Positions 7,580 to 30,943 of a stretch of 53,953 nucleotides of DNA are shown in pieces. This DNA is from a virus. The notes below the pieces were generated by a model that had not been told where the DNA came from, searched no databases, and saw only the letters and a program-made list of their open reading frames with translations. Made by a program: the position numbers and the translations under genes. The DNA is taken from positions 1-53,953 of IMG/VR virus record IMGVR_UViG_3300021138_001458; one strand, 5' to 3'. Positions within the stretch are counted from its first letter, which is position 1, and every line of letters starts with the position of its first letter.

Positions 7580-9217
7580 TTAGAATCCCATATCCATTCC
7601 TGCCATCGGATCTGCCTTATCTTCTTTCTTTTTCTCAAAAATTACAGATTCTGTAGTTAGGATGGTACCTGCAACCGATGCTGCGTTCTCTAGTGCTGTA
7701 CGAGTTACCTTAGTCGGATCTAATAATCCAGCCTCAATAGCATCAACCACTTCTTGAGTTTTAGCATTGTAAGTTTCGAAGGTATTAGCCATATTAATCG
7801 ATCCTAATATTGAAAAGGTATCTTCTACCCCACAGTTTGTTAGAATCGTTTTAAACGGTGCAAAACAGGCTCTTTTAACGATCTCATATCCTTTCAGATT
7901 GTCATTAGTTGAGTCCTTATCTAATACAATAGCTTTTACAGCTCTAATCAAAGCAATACCACCACCTGGAACGATTCCTTCTACGAGGGCTGCTTTGGTT
8001 GCAAATAAAGCATCTTCCACTCTATCTTTCTTCTCTTTTATTTCGATGTCTGAGTTTCCTCCAACACTTATGATAGCAACTCCTCCGACTAGTTTACCTA
8101 AACGCTCTTGTAGCTTTTCTTTTTCGTAGAAAGATGTTGCAGCTTCGACTTGCTTTTTGATTTCTTCAACTCTTGATTCTATTGCCTCTACAGTACCTTT
8201 ACCATCAACAACAGTTGTCGTTTCTTTTGTAACTGTAACCGTTCTTGCTTTTCCCAACAAATCACTAAGTTGTGCTGGAGTTAGTTTATCTAGTTTATGG
8301 CCTTTCTCTTTTGTAATCACTTGACCGCCTGTCATGGTTGCTAGATCCTCTAATAATAGAGTCTTTCTTTCTCCAAAGTCAGGTGCCTTAACTGCACAAA
8401 CCTTAACGATCCCTCTCATCTTATTTACAATTAGAGTTGCAAGAGCTTCATCACCAATATCCTCAGCAACAATTAGCAACGGCTTATTCTCAGCGTTTGC
8501 CTTTGTTAGGGGGTTTAATAGTTCTGCAGCAGTTGTAATTCTACCATCGTAGATTAGAATATACGGATCATCTAACACAGACTGCATTGTGTTGTTGTTA
8601 GTAACAAAGTAAGGAGATTTGTAGCCTCTGTCAAATTGCATACCTTCAACAACTTCTAAACTAGTCTCACCCGTCTTAGATTCTTCAATCGTAACAATTC
8701 CTTCTCTTCCAACTTTTTCAATTGCTGTTGAGATTAAGGTACCAACTTCTACGTCATTATTAGCTGAGATTGTTGCAACTTGCTTGATTTGATCTTGTGA
8801 TGAGATATCTTGTGAGATTTCTTTTAGTTGCTCTATAACCTCTCTTACATAAACATCAATCCCCTTCTTTACTTCAACAGGATTAGATCCTTGGTTAATT
8901 AGTTTTAATCCCTCTTCAACCATCGTAGTTGCAAGTAGGGTTGATGTTGTTGTACCATCTCCTGCTTCATTTGCAGATTTTATGGATACTTGCTTTACTA
9001 ACTGTGCCCCTAAGTCCTCCACTTGATCTTCAAGCTGTCCAAATGCTTTCGCACAGCTTACTCCATCTTTTGTAACTTTTACCTCTCCGTTAGGTCCCTG
9101 TATTAGAACTGTTCTACCTCCAGGTCCTAGAGTAGAAGATACTGAGTGGTTTAGTTGTTTGATACCACTTAATAGTTTGTTTTTTAAATCAATGCCGAAA
9201 ACTGTTTGTGTACTCAT
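7580..9217 (-). CDS. groEL: phage-encoded GroEL chaperonin (Hsp60), 545 aa
   Basis: Full length for the family. ATP-site motifs are present: TLGPGGR (29-35), KDGVSC (50-55), GDGTTT (86-91) and PGGGIAL near 410. The tail ends in [10 protein letters not shown], a short version of the Gly/Met C-terminus inside the GroEL cavity. It forms a ring that folds proteins with GroES. The GroES gene is directly upstream (4-nt gap). Complete GroEL is rare in phages; it may fold capsid or tail proteins, or replace the host chaperonin. The sequence is Bacteroidetes-like but clearly diverged (for example GVSCAK in place of GVTVAK). Confidence 0.97.
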
Positions 9218-9221
9218 GTTT

Positions 9222-9527
9222 TTAATTTGTTGTGTCGTTTACTAATACTGAAAAAACATCTTGCTCTTTGCAGATGAAATACTCTTCACCTTCTAAGGTG
9301 ATACGTGAAGCTCCTAGTTTAGGAATTAACACTTTTTGTCCAACTTCAAGTTGTGACTGTATCCAAGAATCAGAGTTGTAGTTATAGGTTGCTGATACAG
9401 CTACTACCTCTCCTATCTCAGGTCTCTCTTTTCCTAAGTCAGGAATTACTATGTTTCCATAGGTCTGTTCCTGCTCTTCAATTGGCTTCATAATCAGATA
9501 GCCATTAACTGGTTTTAATTTACTCAT
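9222..9527 (-). CDS. groES: GroES co-chaperonin (Hsp10), 101 aa
   Basis: Begins KLKPVNGYLIMKPIEEQEQT, the GroES start, followed by the mobile loop region (TYGNIVIPDLGKERPEIGEVVA) that contacts GroEL, and ends GEEYFICKEQDVFSV. Length fits the family, with an insert before the KVLIPK strand. It caps the GroEL ring. Same operon as GroEL. Confidence 0.92.
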   Translation of the reverse strand: MSKLKPVNGYLIMKPIEEQEQTYGNIVIPDLGKERPEIGEVVAVSATYNYNSDSWIQSQLEVGQKVLIPKLGASRITLEGEEYFICKEQDVFSVLVNDTTN

Positions 9528-9539
9528 ATTGTTGTTTTA

Positions 9540-9743
9540 TTATATAACTTCTACCTCTTCTACTTTTTCTATTTCTAGGTCTGGGATTGATTCTAGAAAA
9601 TATAGAATACCGTCTTTTCTTAATACTAAATCCGTTCTTAGATGCTCTTTCCAGGTATCGATGTTAGGATTATCCTCCTCCCTTATGAGCTTCTTTATAA
9701 CATACAGATTTTCATTGAAATTTAAAAATTTTTTTGCAAACAT
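9540..9743 (-). CDS. hypothetical protein in chaperonin operon, 67 aa
   Basis: Starts MFAKKFLNFNENLYVIKKLI, contains WKEHLRTDLVLRKDGILYFLE and an acidic tail (KVEEVEVI). Not assigned; small proteins with the xDxWKxxLxxDxVLRKxGxLYF pattern recur in phages. Tight packing between Hsp20 and GroES suggests co-expression with the chaperones. Confidence 0.72.
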   Translation of the reverse strand: MFAKKFLNFNENLYVIKKLIREEDNPNIDTWKEHLRTDLVLRKDGILYFLESIPDLEIEKVEEVEVI

Positions 9744-9771
9744 AACAGAGATTTTTGGTAGGTCGTTTTAA

Positions 9772-10194
9772 TTATTTACTTGTAGGTGTCTTGATTTCAA
9801 TCTTTCGTACAGAGGTATTTTCAGCTGTAGGGATTGTTAAAAGCAGTAGTCCCTTATCTAAGGTTGCTTCTAATTTTGTTAAATCAAATTTGGATGATAC
9901 TTTCCAGGTCAGATCAAATGATGATCTCTTGATACCTCTGTAGATTACAGGACGATCTTCTTTTGTTGGTTTTTCATAACGAATACGTAGCTGCTCTCCC
10001 TCAGTAAGGATTTCAATATCCTCTTGAGATAGGCCAACTGCGGCTATTTCAAAAATAATTCCGGTTTCTGTGTCGTAGATATCGACAGGATGTGTTACTC
10101 TTTGCGTAATTGCTGAGAAGTGTGAGTTTGTCTCGAAGAGGTCTTTCCAGAGCAGGTCAAATGGATCAAGCTCAAATGGTCTAAATATGCCCAT
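9772..10194 (-). CDS. small heat-shock protein, Hsp20 family, 140 aa
   Basis: N-terminal FRPFELDPFDLLWKDLFE is the typical aromatic arm, followed by an alpha-crystallin domain (HPVDIYDTETGIIFEIAAVGL..., DIEILTEGEQLRIRYE, SSFDLTWKV, LEATLDKGLLLLTIP), with the A/G-x-L-like GLLLLTIP strand. It would hold unfolding proteins for refolding by GroEL/ES. The C-terminal I-x-I motif is present as IEIKT. T4-like cyanophages also carry Hsp20, but not beside GroEL. Confidence 0.92.
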   Translation of the reverse strand: MGIFRPFELDPFDLLWKDLFETNSHFSAITQRVTHPVDIYDTETGIIFEIAAVGLSQEDIEILTEGEQLRIRYEKPTKEDRPVIYRGIKRSSFDLTWKVSSKFDLTKLEATLDKGLLLLTIPTAENTSVRKIEIKTPTSK

Positions 10195-15199: not shown

Positions 15200-15230
15200 G
15201 AAAAATACTAAATATTCTCTAATGTTCCAA
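15200..15230 (-). promoter_or_regulatory. Bacteroidetes-type promoter for folE2
   Basis: TTG, 20 nt, TATTTTTC. It overlaps the last eight codons of the GIY-YIG gene, so the inserted endonuclease does not separate folE2 from its promoter. Confidence 0.65.
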
Positions 15231-15900
15231 CTTTATTTTTACAGTTTTCAAAATGCCACTGTATCATCTGCGGTTTACCTCCTCTCTGCTTACAGTGTGG
15301 GCACTCTACTATCTCTTTTGGTTTTCCTTTATGTACCTTAGCGTATGTATTACCTATCATGGTTGGTCTAGGAGATCCTTTAATCTTTACGCCAGTCATA
15401 CTATAACAATTATCAAAGTGTAACCTTTTCATATTACTGATACCACCGACCTTGCTACAATGAGGGCACTGCACTCTTTCTTGAGGTCCCACTCTCTTAC
15501 CACGTCTAGATTGTGCTCTTTTTTCAATGGTTTCTTTCGATGGTTTATTTGTACCGTTTTTAATTCTGGTTTGTTGTCTCTTTCTGATAGAATCCTCCGA
15601 CATCTTTCCGCTTTTATCACCAGCCTTTGTTAAGTAGCAATTTAAACCCATCGAACTAGTTGATTGAAATAGCTCTTGATAGTATCTCTCCCAGTAATTT
15701 AACTCCTCTGTTTTACACTCGGTAATTATTTCGAATTTATGTGAATCAACTCCGTATTTTATAAAAGATTTATATAGTATAATTTGAGTTTTACATGCTC
15801 GCATTTTTCTATATTCGTCAAATCTTCGCTGGATGTCGATAGTTTGTCCTATGTATATTTTTCCTGTCGGACTTGTTATTTTATAAATTCCAGTTATCAT
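15208..15900 (-). CDS. GIY-YIG homing endonuclease with two C2HC fingers, 230 aa
   Basis: GIYKITSPTGKIYIGQTIDIQRR is the GIY...YIG catalytic core, with the helix Arg (RRFDEY) and a later Glu/Asn (about residue 75). A basic linker (SIRKRQQTRIKNG) precedes two copies of a CPHC-x8-M-x3-HFxNC zinc finger at about residues 145-166 and 199-220. These probably bind the target DNA. It cuts an intronless allele and spreads by repair copying. The leader (15896-16000) is a conserved structured RNA that buries the ATG. Confidence 0.9.
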   Translation of the reverse strand: MITGIYKITSPTGKIYIGQTIDIQRRFDEYRKMRACKTQIILYKSFIKYGVDSHKFEIITECKTEELNYWERYYQELFQSTSSMGLNCYLTKAGDKSGKMSEDSIRKRQQTRIKNGTNKPSKETIEKRAQSRRGKRVGPQERVQCPHCSKVGGISNMKRLHFDNCYSMTGVKIKGSPRPTMIGNTYAKVHKGKPKEIVECPHCKQRGGKPQMIQWHFENCKNKVGTLENI

Positions 15901-16000
15901 AGTAAATAAAAAAGGCTCTTAGTTTAAAAGAGTACGGCAATACCCAGTTAAACCTTGAGCCAAATATTTTGTTAGCTGTTGCCGCAGCTTTTACTATAAT
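15896..16000 (-). ncRNA. structured leader RNA with kissing loop, copy A
   Basis: Minus strand, 5' to 3'. P1 5' arm ATTATAGTAAA (15990-16000) pairs with TTTACTATGAT (15896-15906), covering the start codon of the GIY-YIG gene. P2 hairpin AGCTG-CGGCAA-CAGCT is at 15974-15989. P3 runs 15914-15961: GGCTC/GAGCC, an AAG/TAA internal loop, GTTTAA/TTAAAC, then GTA-TTGCCG-TAC. Loops CGGCAA and TTGCCG are fully complementary (6 bp). Six T follow P3, so it may also act as a terminator. The same architecture recurs at 28,880 with a compensatory loop change. Confidence 0.75.
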
Positions 16001-16006
16001 AAATAG
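15999..16006 (-). promoter_or_regulatory. late-type promoter element
   Basis: CTATTTAT overlapping the 5' edge of structured RNA copy A. Transcription from it would begin inside or just after the P1 5' arm. Confidence 0.5.
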
Positions 16007-17526: not shown

Positions 17527-18384
17527 TCAAAGAAATTTCCAGATAAACCCGTAGGCAGTTTTTTGTTTACCAGCGCAGCAATTGCTGATATTACCTTTGA
17601 TTCTATGAGAGGACTTATTAAATGCTATCTCAGCATCCTTAACACTTCTGTATGATCGTACTAAGTCTCCGGTAACTTTATCATACTGCCCGACCGGTTT
17701 TTTGACTTTTTCAGATGCTTTTTTTCTTCCTTCTGTAATATTTGCTTTTTTCTTTTCAGCTTTGGTTTCGTACATTTCTAAATCAGAGATACGCTCCTCT
17801 TTGTACTTCCACAAAAACCCTCCTGCTTTTTTCTGATATCCTCTTAAAACTCCGGCTATATTATTTATTCCTGTGTTTTTAAAGGCTTCTTGAATCGAAT
17901 AGTACTCCTGTACTGTTCTACTAGTTTCCGGATCTACTTGTAGCACTGCTCTTGCTCGTTTCATTCTTGTATCTTTACTTACAGTTTTACCTGTGTGTAC
18001 CTGTCTTATTTTAGCTATCTGCTCTACAGTGTGGTAGCTTTTGCCTTTGCGTGCTGATGACTGCTTATTACGTGTATCTAACGTAGTTACATAACCTACC
18101 CTTTGATCAGTCACGTACTTGCGAATGTTGTACTCAGGTTGATGAGTATCTATATAATACTGCTCTCTTTCTAAGAGTTCGCTTATAGTTACAAGTTCCA
18201 GTACTTCAAAAATAAACACATCCTTACCGTATTTACAGTATGCATTTTGTAGTATAGGACTATGATGCTTACCATTCCTTAAAGATCTCCAGTGCTCCAG
18301 CTCTCTACTTCTTAGGTTTCTAGTACTTCCTATATAAACCTTATTATTACATAAATCTCTAATTTGGTATATTCCAGATTTCAT
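17527..18384 (-). CDS. GIY-YIG homing endonuclease with NUMOD-type tail, 285 aa
   Basis: SGIYQIRDLCNNKVYIGSTRNLRSRELEHW carries GIY and YIG with the catalytic Arg; EREQYYIDTHQPEYN supplies the Glu and Asn of the family. The C-terminal half contains repeated DNA-binding modules (SKDTRMKRARAVLQVDPETS, IQEAFKNTGINNIAGVLRGY, KPVGQYDKVTGDLVRSYRSV...) of the NUMOD1/IENR type: 'constant-plus-helix-turn-helix' units ending GFLWKYK and GFIWKFL. It sits between queE and a promoter, inside the deazaguanine region. Confidence 0.92.
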   Translation of the reverse strand: MKSGIYQIRDLCNNKVYIGSTRNLRSRELEHWRSLRNGKHHSPILQNAYCKYGKDVFIFEVLELVTISELLEREQYYIDTHQPEYNIRKYVTDQRVGYVTTLDTRNKQSSARKGKSYHTVEQIAKIRQVHTGKTVSKDTRMKRARAVLQVDPETSRTVQEYYSIQEAFKNTGINNIAGVLRGYQKKAGGFLWKYKEERISDLEMYETKAEKKKANITEGRKKASEKVKKPVGQYDKVTGDLVRSYRSVKDAEIAFNKSSHRIKGNISNCCAGKQKTAYGFIWKFL

Positions 18385-21542: not shown

Positions 21543-22568
21543 TTATACTATTTCGCATGCTCCACCAGCGCAAGCTGCTTCTGAGCGTAAGTCTGTGTTG
21601 TCTTGGTGCTCAGTTACCTGAGTTAGATCCAAGCCTGTTAAGCTCTGCATCATCTCCGTATACTTATCTTCTGTACAGTCCTCAAAAGGAGCTTGTATAT
21701 AGGTTCCTCCGTTATAAGGTAAAACTGATAATCCATTGTAGAATTTTCTATTCTCCCACATCCACTCTCCGACTTGCTTCCACTCTTCTGGTTTGATCGA
21801 GACAGTTGCTGATATGTTATGCGTATTTTGTCCAGTTCTGTGTCCAGGTTTAATCCAGCCTATATAGAAAAGTTTAACTCTCTCTAATAAATCAAGAGCT
21901 GATTCATGTCTTAGAATCGCACCTTGAGGGGCTTTTTGAGGAACTGAGATTACTGCTGTATCATGTGGACGGAAATATTCATCTTCTACTAGCTCTGGAT
22001 GAGCTGCTTTTAGGTAATCGTAGATTGCTTCGTTCTTACCTACTCTAATTCTTCTGATATAGTAGTCGTTATGCCAAGCATGGATACCTGAGGAGGTTCC
22101 TAGCGTTAGCGAAGAAGTTCCAGATGGTTTTATCGTAGTACATCTAGCTGCTGCATTAATACCTAACAACTTAGCTACTCTTTCATTTTCTTCTTTTACG
22201 ATTTCAGCTGCTTGTTTTAAGTCTAGTAGTTGAGCTTTTCCAGAACCAACTCCTGTCATTCCTACTCCAATTAGAGCATCTTTTTCGGTTGTACGTTGCC
22301 ATACTGGTCTTAGGTAGTGGAAGTTTGTGTAAGAAGCCTGTAAAGTACCGATAAAGGTAGCTGCTTTTACTCTTGCGTTTAGATCCTCTTGAGATTCAAC
22401 ATCGGATACATTTACTTCACATAGATTACAGAACTGAAAAGGACGCAAGGCGATTTCACAGTTATGCGCTAATATGTTGTTTGCAAAGAAGTTATGATTA
22501 TTCTCTACTTCTATATCATATACATCCTTCAATGCTTCTATAAACTCTATTGATACTAATCTTGCCAT
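21543..22568 (-). CDS. nrdJ-C: ribonucleotide reductase class II, C-terminal half with C-intein, 341 aa
   Basis: Residues 1-36 are the C-terminal half of a split intein (YDIEVENNHNFFANNILAHN). After Asn36 the extein starts with Cys: CEIALRPFQFCNLCEVNV, the sequence that follows NPC in class II reductases. It contains TGVGSGKAQL and KPSGTSSLTLGTSSGIHAWH, and ends in ACAGGACEIV, the redox-active Cys pair re-reduced by thioredoxin. It makes active enzyme only after trans-splicing to the product of 23443-24705 (313 + 305 residues). Confidence 0.93.
   Translation of the reverse strand: MARLVSIEFIEALKDVYDIEVENNHNFFANNILAHNCEIALRPFQFCNLCEVNVSDVESQEDLNARVKAATFIGTLQASYTNFHYLRPVWQRTTEKDALIGVGMTGVGSGKAQLLDLKQAAEIVKEENERVAKLLGINAAARCTTIKPSGTSSLTLGTSSGIHAWHNDYYIRRIRVGKNEAIYDYLKAAHPELVEDEYFRPHDTAVISVPQKAPQGAILRHESALDLLERVKLFYIGWIKPGHRTGQNTHNISATVSIKPEEWKQVGEWMWENRKFYNGLSVLPYNGGTYIQAPFEDCTEDKYTEMMQSLTGLDLTQVTEHQDNTDLRSEAACAGGACEIV
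22461..22568 (-). other. C-terminal split intein segment (36 aa)
   Basis: Block F VYDIEVENNHNFFANNILAHN followed by block G His-Asn and the +1 Cys. The start Met is native to the fragment, as in other naturally split inteins. Confidence 0.92.
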
Positions 22569-28233: not shown

Positions 28234-28881
28234 TTACAAGTACTTACACTCTCCTCTCTTTATCAACCTTGTTATATAGGCCTCACTGCGATTTAGTGCA
28301 CTTGCTGCAAATCGTCGAGATCCGTAAACTGTTCCTGTAGGGAGGTGCAGCAGTTGCTTTGATTGACGCCTTGATTGTTCCGGATAAGACTGTCCCCATC
28401 TAGGGTGGTTTGCTCCACGCACTTTATTCTTAGCTGCTTCTGTTTTTTTCAGACCTGTTCTAGCTTTCACCATCTTTTGGATTGTAGCACTTGAGTGTTT
28501 TCTTCCGTACATAGGATTCTGACTTCCAATCCTTACGCTTGCCTCCAATGCATTCAGCTGCTTAGCTTCCGCATATGCCCTGCTTGATGGAGCATATCTG
28601 CCAGCTTGCCATTTATTTTTTAGATTGCAAAGTGCCCAGTAAGCGTATACTAGTTTCTGTGTACCTGGATGGATTTTGCACAATAGTCGATGACATATAA
28701 AATGTTCTTTAGCAGTAAGCAGTGTTATATTGGAGTGAGTTTTCCATTGATAAACCGATCCACCCCCTCCTAAACACTTTGGAACGATGTGGTGTGCTTC
28801 GTAGTAAACACCTTCACCTTTCCCTCTACTCTCCCTTCTAGCTCTTTCAATAATCTGATCGTAGATCCTTTGATAATTCAT
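28234..28881 (-). CDS. HNH homing endonuclease with NUMOD3 module, 215 aa
   Basis: HNH core: YYEAHHIVPKCLGGGG, NITLLTAKEHFICHRLLCKI. Next a NUMOD3 motif (GSQNPMYGRKHSSAT) and a C-terminal helix-turn-helix (FAASALNRSEAYITRLIK). It lies between uvsX and the denV promoter. Its leader is structured RNA copy B, whose P1 helix covers the ATG. Confidence 0.9.
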   Translation of the reverse strand: MNYQRIYDQIIERARRESRGKGEGVYYEAHHIVPKCLGGGGSVYQWKTHSNITLLTAKEHFICHRLLCKIHPGTQKLVYAYWALCNLKNKWQAGRYAPSSRAYAEAKQLNALEASVRIGSQNPMYGRKHSSATIQKMVKARTGLKKTEAAKNKVRGANHPRWGQSYPEQSRRQSKQLLHLPTGTVYGSRRFAASALNRSEAYITRLIKRGECKYL

Positions 28882-28984
28882 TATAGTAAATAAAAAAGGC
28901 TCTTGGTAAATGTAAAGTACTGCAATACTTCACAAACCTTGAGCCTAATATCCTATGACTGTTGCAGCAGCCTTTTACTATAAT
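28880..28984 (-). ncRNA. structured leader RNA with kissing loop, copy B
   Basis: P1: ATTATAGTAAA (28974-28984) pairs perfectly (11 bp) with TTTACTATAAT (28880-28890), overlapping the HNH ATG. P2 GGCTG-CTGCAA-CAGTC is 28957-28972. P3 spans 28898-28945: GGCTC/GAGCC, an AAG/CAA internal loop, an imperfect middle stem, then AAGTA-TTGCAG-TACTT. Loops CTGCAA and TTGCAG are fully complementary. Compared with copy A, one loop-loop pair changed from G-C to T-A on both sides. Six T follow P3. Confidence 0.75.
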
Positions 28985-28990
28985 AAATAG
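28983..28990 (-). promoter_or_regulatory. late-type promoter element
   Basis: CTATTTAT at the 5' edge of RNA copy B, as in copy A. Confidence 0.5.
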
Positions 28991-30097: not shown

Positions 30098-30943
30098 CTA
30101 TTTCTTTTTAAGATCAAATAAATCTTCAAATTCTTGATCAATATCAGCCTTTACTTTAGCTGGTTTGGTTTGTAGTGAATACTTCTTCTCCTCTGCTGCT
30201 ACTTCTTCCTTAATTGAAAGTGGTTTTGCAGGAGCTGTAGTGGTTGGAGTTTCCTCCTCTTCTGCATCGTCTGTAGCTTCTTCAGGGTTTAACCACTCAA
30301 GTAGAGATGCTTTCATCTCATCATAAGGATATCTCTTGAAAACAGCTAATGGATCTGGTTGGTCGTTTAACCACTTTTCTACTTGCTTTCCGTCAGTAGA
30401 TAACGGAGTTGTCTTTGTACGTACACGCACTTTTGACTGATTGAAACTAGTTCCGTTTGTTTCAGGTCCTGTAGTCTCGATTGTGATATCACGACCATCT
30501 ACTGGATCTGTGTAATCACCTACGTCCTCATCCTCTGCAATGCTAAGTAGTTCCATGTAAACTTGTTTACCAAATTCCCATAAACGAACACCCTTCTCTT
30601 CCTCTCCTCTTACAACAACAGGAGCAAATACACGCATTTTTGGCTCTAATTTCTTAGCCATAGACCAGTTTTCTTTGCTACTAGTCTGTTTTAACTGTTT
30701 AGCGAACTCCACAATCGGATCTTTCTCTCCGAAATTTACAAGAGAAATCATAGTGCCCTTACCAATACCGTAATGCATGTAGACTTCTTTGAATGGGTTT
30801 GCTTTGTCATACACGGACGGCACAATTCTCACAGAATGCTTACCTATGGCAGGCTTCCAGAAAATCTGCGACATGTCCCTCTTTTGGCCTCCTTGCTTCG
30901 TTTGCAGAGCGCCAAGCCTTGACTTAATGGCTGATAAATCCAT
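30098..30943 (-). CDS. gp32-like single-stranded DNA-binding protein, 281 aa
   Basis: N-terminal DLSAIKSRLGALQTK is the cooperative-binding basic arm; the core has FWKPAIGKHSVRIVPS, FGEKDPIVEF and WEFGKQVYMELL with aromatic residues of an OB-fold. An acidic Glu/Asp/Pro/Thr tail ends in DQEFEDLFDLKKK. T4 gp32's zinc-binding cysteines are absent, as in many T4-like relatives outside enterobacteria. The promoter at 30990 is 46 nt upstream. Confidence 0.88.
   Translation of the reverse strand: MDLSAIKSRLGALQTKQGGQKRDMSQIFWKPAIGKHSVRIVPSVYDKANPFKEVYMHYGIGKGTMISLVNFGEKDPIVEFAKQLKQTSSKENWSMAKKLEPKMRVFAPVVVRGEEEKGVRLWEFGKQVYMELLSIAEDEDVGDYTDPVDGRDITIETTGPETNGTSFNQSKVRVRTKTTPLSTDGKQVEKWLNDQPDPLAVFKRYPYDEMKASLLEWLNPEEATDDAEEEETPTTTAPAKPLSIKEEVAAEEKKYSLQTKPAKVKADIDQEFEDLFDLKKK

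Follow-up and report, generated by a model that had tools for sequence, protein, structure and literature searches.

Two homing endonuclease genes of unrelated type in one virus genome are preceded by leaders of the same architecture, which raises the question of what these leaders are and how they might act on the genes that follow them. The window, by which we mean the whole stretch of DNA analysed here, is a single virus record of 53,953 bases with its genes on the minus strand. The tail sheath shares 55% identity with its counterpart in Flavobacterium phage immuto, and the ORF starts are preceded by A-rich sequence rather than by a Shine-Dalgarno element; together, these features make a T4-like phage of a Bacteroidota host the likely source. 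Elsewhere in the window, GroEL-, GroES- and Hsp20-like ORFs can be read by eye at 7580-10194, and a ribonucleotide-reductase segment at 21543-22568 has an intein C-terminal splicing block directly upstream, which makes this gene intein-split or otherwise interrupted.

Two leaders of one plan precede unrelated nuclease genes

Both leaders lie on the minus strand (A at 15895-16005, B at 28879-28989) and present, in order, the motif TATTTAT, a hairpin (P2) with a 6-nt loop, a linker, a second hairpin (P3) whose 6-nt loop is complementary to the first, a U6 tract, a short stretch and the start codon. The arms of a further helix, P1, lie at the two ends:

15999-16005, minus: TATTTAT of copy A at the leader's 5' edge, probable core of a late promoter (7-mer enrichment upstream of ORFs in the window, immuto and G004)
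15990-16001, minus: copy A P1 5' arm, overlapping the promoter motif (folding and alignment)
15974-15989, minus: copy A hairpin P2, loop CGGCAA at 15979-15984 (folding and alignment)
15914-15961, minus: copy A hairpin P3 with GGCTC/GAGCC and an AA/AA internal loop, loop TTGCCG at 15935-15940
15908-15913, minus: copy A six-U tract, abutting P3 (sequence, T-tail score)
15895-15906, minus: copy A P1 3' arm, including the start codon at 15898-15900 (folding and alignment)
15208-15900, minus: GIY-YIG homing endonuclease ORF after copy A (Pfam PF01541, 3.6e-9)
28983-28989, minus: copy B TATTTAT, probable late-promoter core (motif enrichment)
28974-28985, minus: copy B P1 5' arm (folding and alignment)
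28957-28972, minus: copy B hairpin P2, loop CTGCAA at 28962-28967 (folding and alignment)
28898-28945, minus: copy B hairpin P3, loop TTGCAG at 28920-28925 (folding and alignment)
28892-28897, minus: copy B six-U tract, abutting P3 (sequence, T-tail score)
28879-28890, minus: copy B P1 3' arm, including the start codon at 28879-28881 (folding and alignment)
28234-28881, minus: HNH homing endonuclease ORF after copy B, MobE-like with NUMOD3 (phrog_655, 5.1e-46)

An initial, sequence-only reading had placed the two leaders before unrelated nucleases, and the assignments bear this out: the ORF behind A matches the GIY-YIG family in Pfam, and that behind B matches the homing endonucleases of phrog_655 and is 35.6% identical to T4 MobE. 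The loops are perfect complements, as that reading held (CGGCAA/TTGCCG in A, CTGCAA/TTGCAG in B), the double change from G-C to T-A between the copies is real, and both copies contain the GGCTC/GAGCC stem and six-U tail of P3. The internal loop of P3, by contrast, had been given as AAG/xAA and is actually a 2x2 AA/AA loop, since the G is itself paired, to U or to C. P1 had been described as an 11-bp helix that buries the start codon; the start codon does lie inside P1 in both A and B, but the helix spans 12 columns (5-16 with 103-114 of alignment A3, U-G pairs included) and is not a family-wide trait.

Both leaders fold far more stably than shuffled sequences, with energies of -39.2 kcal/mol for A (shuffle mean -19.7, z -6.0) and -34.9 kcal/mol for B (shuffle mean -18.4, z -6.1); none of 200 shuffles folded as well as the real leaders. 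No Shine-Dalgarno is visible before A or B, and a U-rich stretch precedes both starts; across the leaders, the 15 nt before the start codon are 65% U, compared with 56% A for other ORFs of the window, the leader scan itself having demanded TTTT. The base of P3 abuts the U-tract in all leaders (T-tail score 4.95 versus 2.08 for other ORFs, partly by selection). P3 thus presents a GC-rich stem followed by a U-tract; it contains an internal loop, and a simple terminator scan did not call it.

The leaders belong to a wider family

Searches of other phage contigs with sequence patterns, the TATTTAT motif and a covariance model yielded 56 distinct leaders with 28 different loop pairs, comprising 54 relatives and the two copies in the window, which are thus part of a wider family. 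All of the relatives come from metagenome fragments, and the phages that carry them are probably T4-like and Bacteroidota-infecting. A pattern search for P3 found L001, L002 and L012, and two more subgroups, with the same plan and different sequence, were seen upstream of HNH relatives. The TATTTAT-anchored search covered loci picked for an HNH, GIY-YIG or leader pattern. Among 766 motifs it identified 55 distinct leaders with complementary loops, as opposed to 3 in the complement control and 2 in the reverse control; the remaining leader was found by the covariance model alone, and its loops are complementary too. A further member of subgroup 3, L047, was aligned by eye and stands outside the 56.

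Because the anchored hit list demanded perfect loop pairing, we rely on leaders found without that demand, which suffice. A subgroup 2 pattern that left loop pairing free returned 33 distinct stretches; apart from L124, which is spurious, every one of them (32) has a perfectly complementary loop pair. Likewise, a covariance model built from subgroup 2, with the window copies left out, finds both A (E 1.6e-5) and B (E 0.0085). The homologues with covarying loop pairs upstream of nucleases that the sequence-only reading proposed to look for in phage metagenomes exist.

That reading had also called the RNA unrecognised. No leader matched Rfam at gathering score, relaxed scans giving only chance-level matches below that score, and our literature search found no report of the motif. 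BLAST against isolated phages (with leader B plus its ORF, leader B alone and one subgroup 2 leader) returned no match, and a genome-collection scan gave just two clostridial or uncultured-bacterium stretches, in which the leader descriptor called none. A scan of viral contigs with the P1 sequence only produced 92 stretches and no new kissing leader, indicating that P1 without the P2/P3 module does not mark the family. Since one fold, with many loop sequences, precedes dozens of unrelated nuclease genes, the leaders form a genuine RNA family, apparently one that had not been described.

Pairing constraint is greatest in the kissing helix

Two alignments of 18 leaders from subgroup 2 and a third of the five leaders from subgroup 1, the group to which A and B belong, show the kissing helix with 100% of its cells paired. 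Its pairs have changed on both sides at 5 of 7, 5 of 7 and 3 of 6 positions in the three alignments, always from one Watson-Crick pair to another, and across the family it measures 6-9 Watson-Crick bp. When the partners are slid by 1-3 columns as a control, the whole structure drops to 29-49% paired. P2 and P3 covary as well, and the G-U pairs included in their covariation favour an RNA over a DNA element. Among all helices, the kissing helix shows the strongest pairing constraint.

P1 behaves differently. The sequence-only reading expected it to covary, but in the five subgroup 1 leaders it has one-sided changes only, with no double change, and two of its pairs are broken in L001.

Two further features of the alignments deserve mention. 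The 20 kissing pairs of A3, A6 and A7 include no one-sided (G-U) intermediates, unlike the other helices, hinting either at very strict pairing or at both loops changing jointly. In A6 and A7, the linker between P2 and P3 contains AAACTTATTGG, which is strongly conserved yet unpaired in the subgroup 2 leaders.

A probable late promoter overlaps the 5' arm

Of all 7-mers, TATTTAT is the most strongly enriched upstream of ORFs, occurring there 10 times in the window against 1.2 expected, 10 times in immuto against 0.7 and 8 times in the relative G004 against 1.1. In immuto it stands 26-38 nt before the sheath, tube, hub and tape-measure genes. Within the window, the motif lies 22-39 nt before ten ORFs, four of which are leader-less nuclease-like genes, and 105-108 nt before the two nuclease ORFs that bear leaders. 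A similar division holds in G004: six nuclease genes have leaders, whereas for four nuclease-like ORFs TATTTAT comes 18-20 nt ahead of the start. This distribution suggests that TATTTAT is likely the phage's late promoter.

The leader 5' arm overlaps the motif, and late transcripts should therefore lack P1. Read-through RNA, on the other hand, would carry the arm, because the leader follows closely on the upstream stop codon, at a median distance of 11 nt.

A GIY-YIG gene without a kissing leader, at 17527-18384 (upstream region to 18408), provides a simpler case in the same genome. Here, a hairpin (ACTATTT..AAATAGT) formed by the promoter motif and the start region is predicted to bury the start codon in read-through RNA, and on this model the locus is a plain I-TevI-like arrangement.

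Start-codon closure by P1 is predicted for few leaders

Contrary to the view of P1 as a defining trait, a start-burying P1 occurs in 6 of the 56 leaders, namely those of the window's subgroup (one of the five being broken) and one distant leader. The latter, the unrelated L046:21-135, has an apparent 11-bp start-burying helix of different sequence (by eye), and its start codon is closed in the full-length RNA prediction. In the large subgroup 2, the same 5' arm, which is nearly invariant there, instead lengthens P2, and in subgroups 2 and 3 the start codon is not buried by it.

Folding predictions agree with this division, although ViennaRNA ignores the kissing pair and the openness values that follow are a guide only. 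In full RNA, the ATG is predicted to be unpaired with a probability of 0.00-0.23 in A, B, L002, L012 and L046, and of 0.45 in L001. For an RNA that starts 13 nt downstream of the first base of the motif and so lacks the 5' arm, predicted openness rises from 0.00 to 0.44-0.55 for A and B and hardly moves in subgroup 2 (mean 0.34 with the arm and 0.34 without). Because the 5' arm has little influence on predicted openness in subgroups 2 and 3, timing of the I-TevI type fails to explain most of the family.

The leaders move with homing endonucleases

Every intact ORF downstream of the leaders resembles an HNH or GIY-YIG homing endonuclease, a statement that draws mainly on leader-pattern scans and a covariance-model scan of 17 larger records. 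At L094:6264 and L139:4425, leaders stand before nuclease ORFs broken after 9 and 40 codons, respectively, as expected for decaying homing genes. Unrelated nucleases may share an identical loop pair in their leaders, indicating that the leader moves as a cassette. Insertion sites fit this pattern: the window has a leader and HNH gene between uvsX and the next gene at a site without a nuclease gene in L002, and L002 has a leader and GIY-YIG gene between its genes for the exonuclease and the helicase, a place free of both in the window. The maximum per contig is reached in G004, whose 53 kb contain six leaders, each with a different loop pair.

Two identities for the leader were rejected. A nuclease operator is incompatible with loop sequences that do not track nuclease type, and a remnant of a self-splicing intron with the complete upstream frames seen for 49 leaders, which stop a median of 11 nt short of the leader.

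Possible functions of the leader

The sequence-only reading offered a switch or attenuator tied to a ligand, a protein or late transcription. Late transcription fits best, given the overlap of the 5' arm with the probable late promoter, and an attenuator is possible; a ligand switch finds no support, as the subgroups share no conserved unpaired core and loop sequences vary freely.

Our preferred reading, whose chances we consider evenly balanced, is that A and B belong to a mobile family of cis-acting leaders that act as a brake on nuclease expression. In read-through RNA, the promoter-derived 5' arm would be present and, in the window's subgroup, would pair with the start codon to block nuclease translation; late RNA starting just downstream of TATTTAT would miss the arm, and the start codon would open. 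Closure of the start by P1 is ordinary in kind and does not explain the kissing unit and U-tract. The P2-P3 unit sits in the ribosome footprint and ends in a terminator-like U-tract, which suggests the brake: kept in both kinds of transcript, unit and U-tract would reduce output further, through either transcription attenuation at P3 or rigid structure in the ribosome footprint. Several points count against the scheme. A strong terminator after the late promoter would silence the nuclease as well, and the absence of double changes in P1, with its broken pairs in L001, speaks against start-closing timing, as does the unburied start codon of subgroups 2 and 3. The internal loop of P3, and the failure of the simple terminator scan to call it, also weigh against attenuation.

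It is possible, if doubtful, that the leader is instead a conditional attenuator, in which P3 and the U-tract form an intrinsic terminator controlled by kissing. In read-through RNA, kissing would be strained or prevented by the long P1/P2 helix that subgroups 2 and 3 form, so that P3 terminates, whereas the short P2 and longer linker of late RNA would allow kissing with P3 and weaken termination. The juxtaposition of P3 and U-tract in all leaders and the dominant constraint on the kissing helix are both in keeping with such a device, as is the near-invariance of the P2-lengthening arm in subgroup 2, although this last is also explained by the promoter and the arm was part of the search pattern. 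The direction of the kissing effect is a guess, however, and the terminator scan passed P3 over. A related and equally tentative proposal is a new class of mobile regulatory RNA, a self-contained cassette of late promoter, kissing loops and terminator acquired by and swapped among homing endonuclease genes from many unrelated families, in which kissing would set termination at P3 and each genomic copy would keep a private loop pair.

We consider it unlikely that the leader is simply a 5' protector, a rigid kissing structure that slows decay of late nuclease mRNA without any switching. P2 would sit at the extreme 5' end of late transcripts, as a protector should, but the U-tract and poor start context are left unexplained, and most late genes, together with the four other nuclease genes of the window, do without a leader. 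Less probable still, by analogy with T4 gp32, which uses a leader pseudoknot and an A+U-rich start region (PMC3014915), is an operator for the phage single-stranded-DNA binding protein (SSB) that ties production of the nuclease to free SSB; the leaders have U-rich start regions and a gp32-like ORF seems, as a sequence impression only, to be present at 30098-30943, but the family precedes nuclease genes only and not the SSB gene. A DNA-level element, its inverted repeats serving as recombination or nuclease-binding sites, is the most improbable: loop-pair changes are Watson-Crick only, with no G-U, and the leader shuffles among nucleases as a cassette, but G-U pairs are frequent in P1, P2 and P3, an indication of RNA, the orientation relative to the gene is single, loop sequences are not tied to nuclease type, and inverted repeats flanking the nuclease ORF, 13 nt long around ORF B, are not enriched over 50 leaders (6.7 versus 6.5 nt expected).

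Relation to known RNAs

Purine riboswitches combine a P1/P2/P3 plan with a loop-loop contact, and kissing of the ColE1 RNAI/RNAII type joins fully paired loops of 6-7 nt. The leaders lack the conserved ligand core of the former, together with any Rfam match, and their loops are in cis and freely variable.

Closer likenesses are found among phage nuclease genes. For T4 I-TevI, I-TevII, I-TevIII and segB and for Aeh1 mobE, RNA structure closes the start region of read-through transcripts, and a late promoter inside the 5' arm frees late RNA from the structure (PMC2988022, PMC3014915). As with I-TevI, segB and mobE, the present leaders precede homing endonuclease genes (ORF B being MobE-like), have a 5' arm that coincides in part with a probable late promoter and, in the window's subgroup, are predicted to close the start codon in read-through RNA. 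Those systems, however, hide a Shine-Dalgarno with one structure; here no such element is evident, a two-hairpin kissing module is added, and the 5' arm pairs elsewhere in most relatives. In seg43(25) of Aeromonas phage 25, a very stable hairpin lies directly upstream of the nuclease translation start without hiding it (PMC2988022), a placement close to that in subgroups 2 and 3, but the hairpin is single, has no described kissing partner and belongs to no known family. The leader of T4 gene 32, also from a T4-type phage, shares tertiary pairing of a loop upstream of an A+U-rich start region, but this is an H-type pseudoknot that autoregulates an SSB gene in another gene context (PMC3014915).

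The new part is the kissing P2/P3 module with its U-tract beside the start codon, which would most likely act as a brake, either as an attenuator or as a translation block. That leader hairpins can repress phage homing endonucleases in a timed manner had already been established for a small number of T4-type genes. In the present family, a single structured RNA with a covarying tertiary contact stands before at least 56 HNH- or GIY-YIG-type nuclease genes, with as many as six on one contig, and is exchanged among them; its loop pairs lend themselves to clean compensatory swaps. This recurrence suggests a transferable control device common to selfish nucleases.
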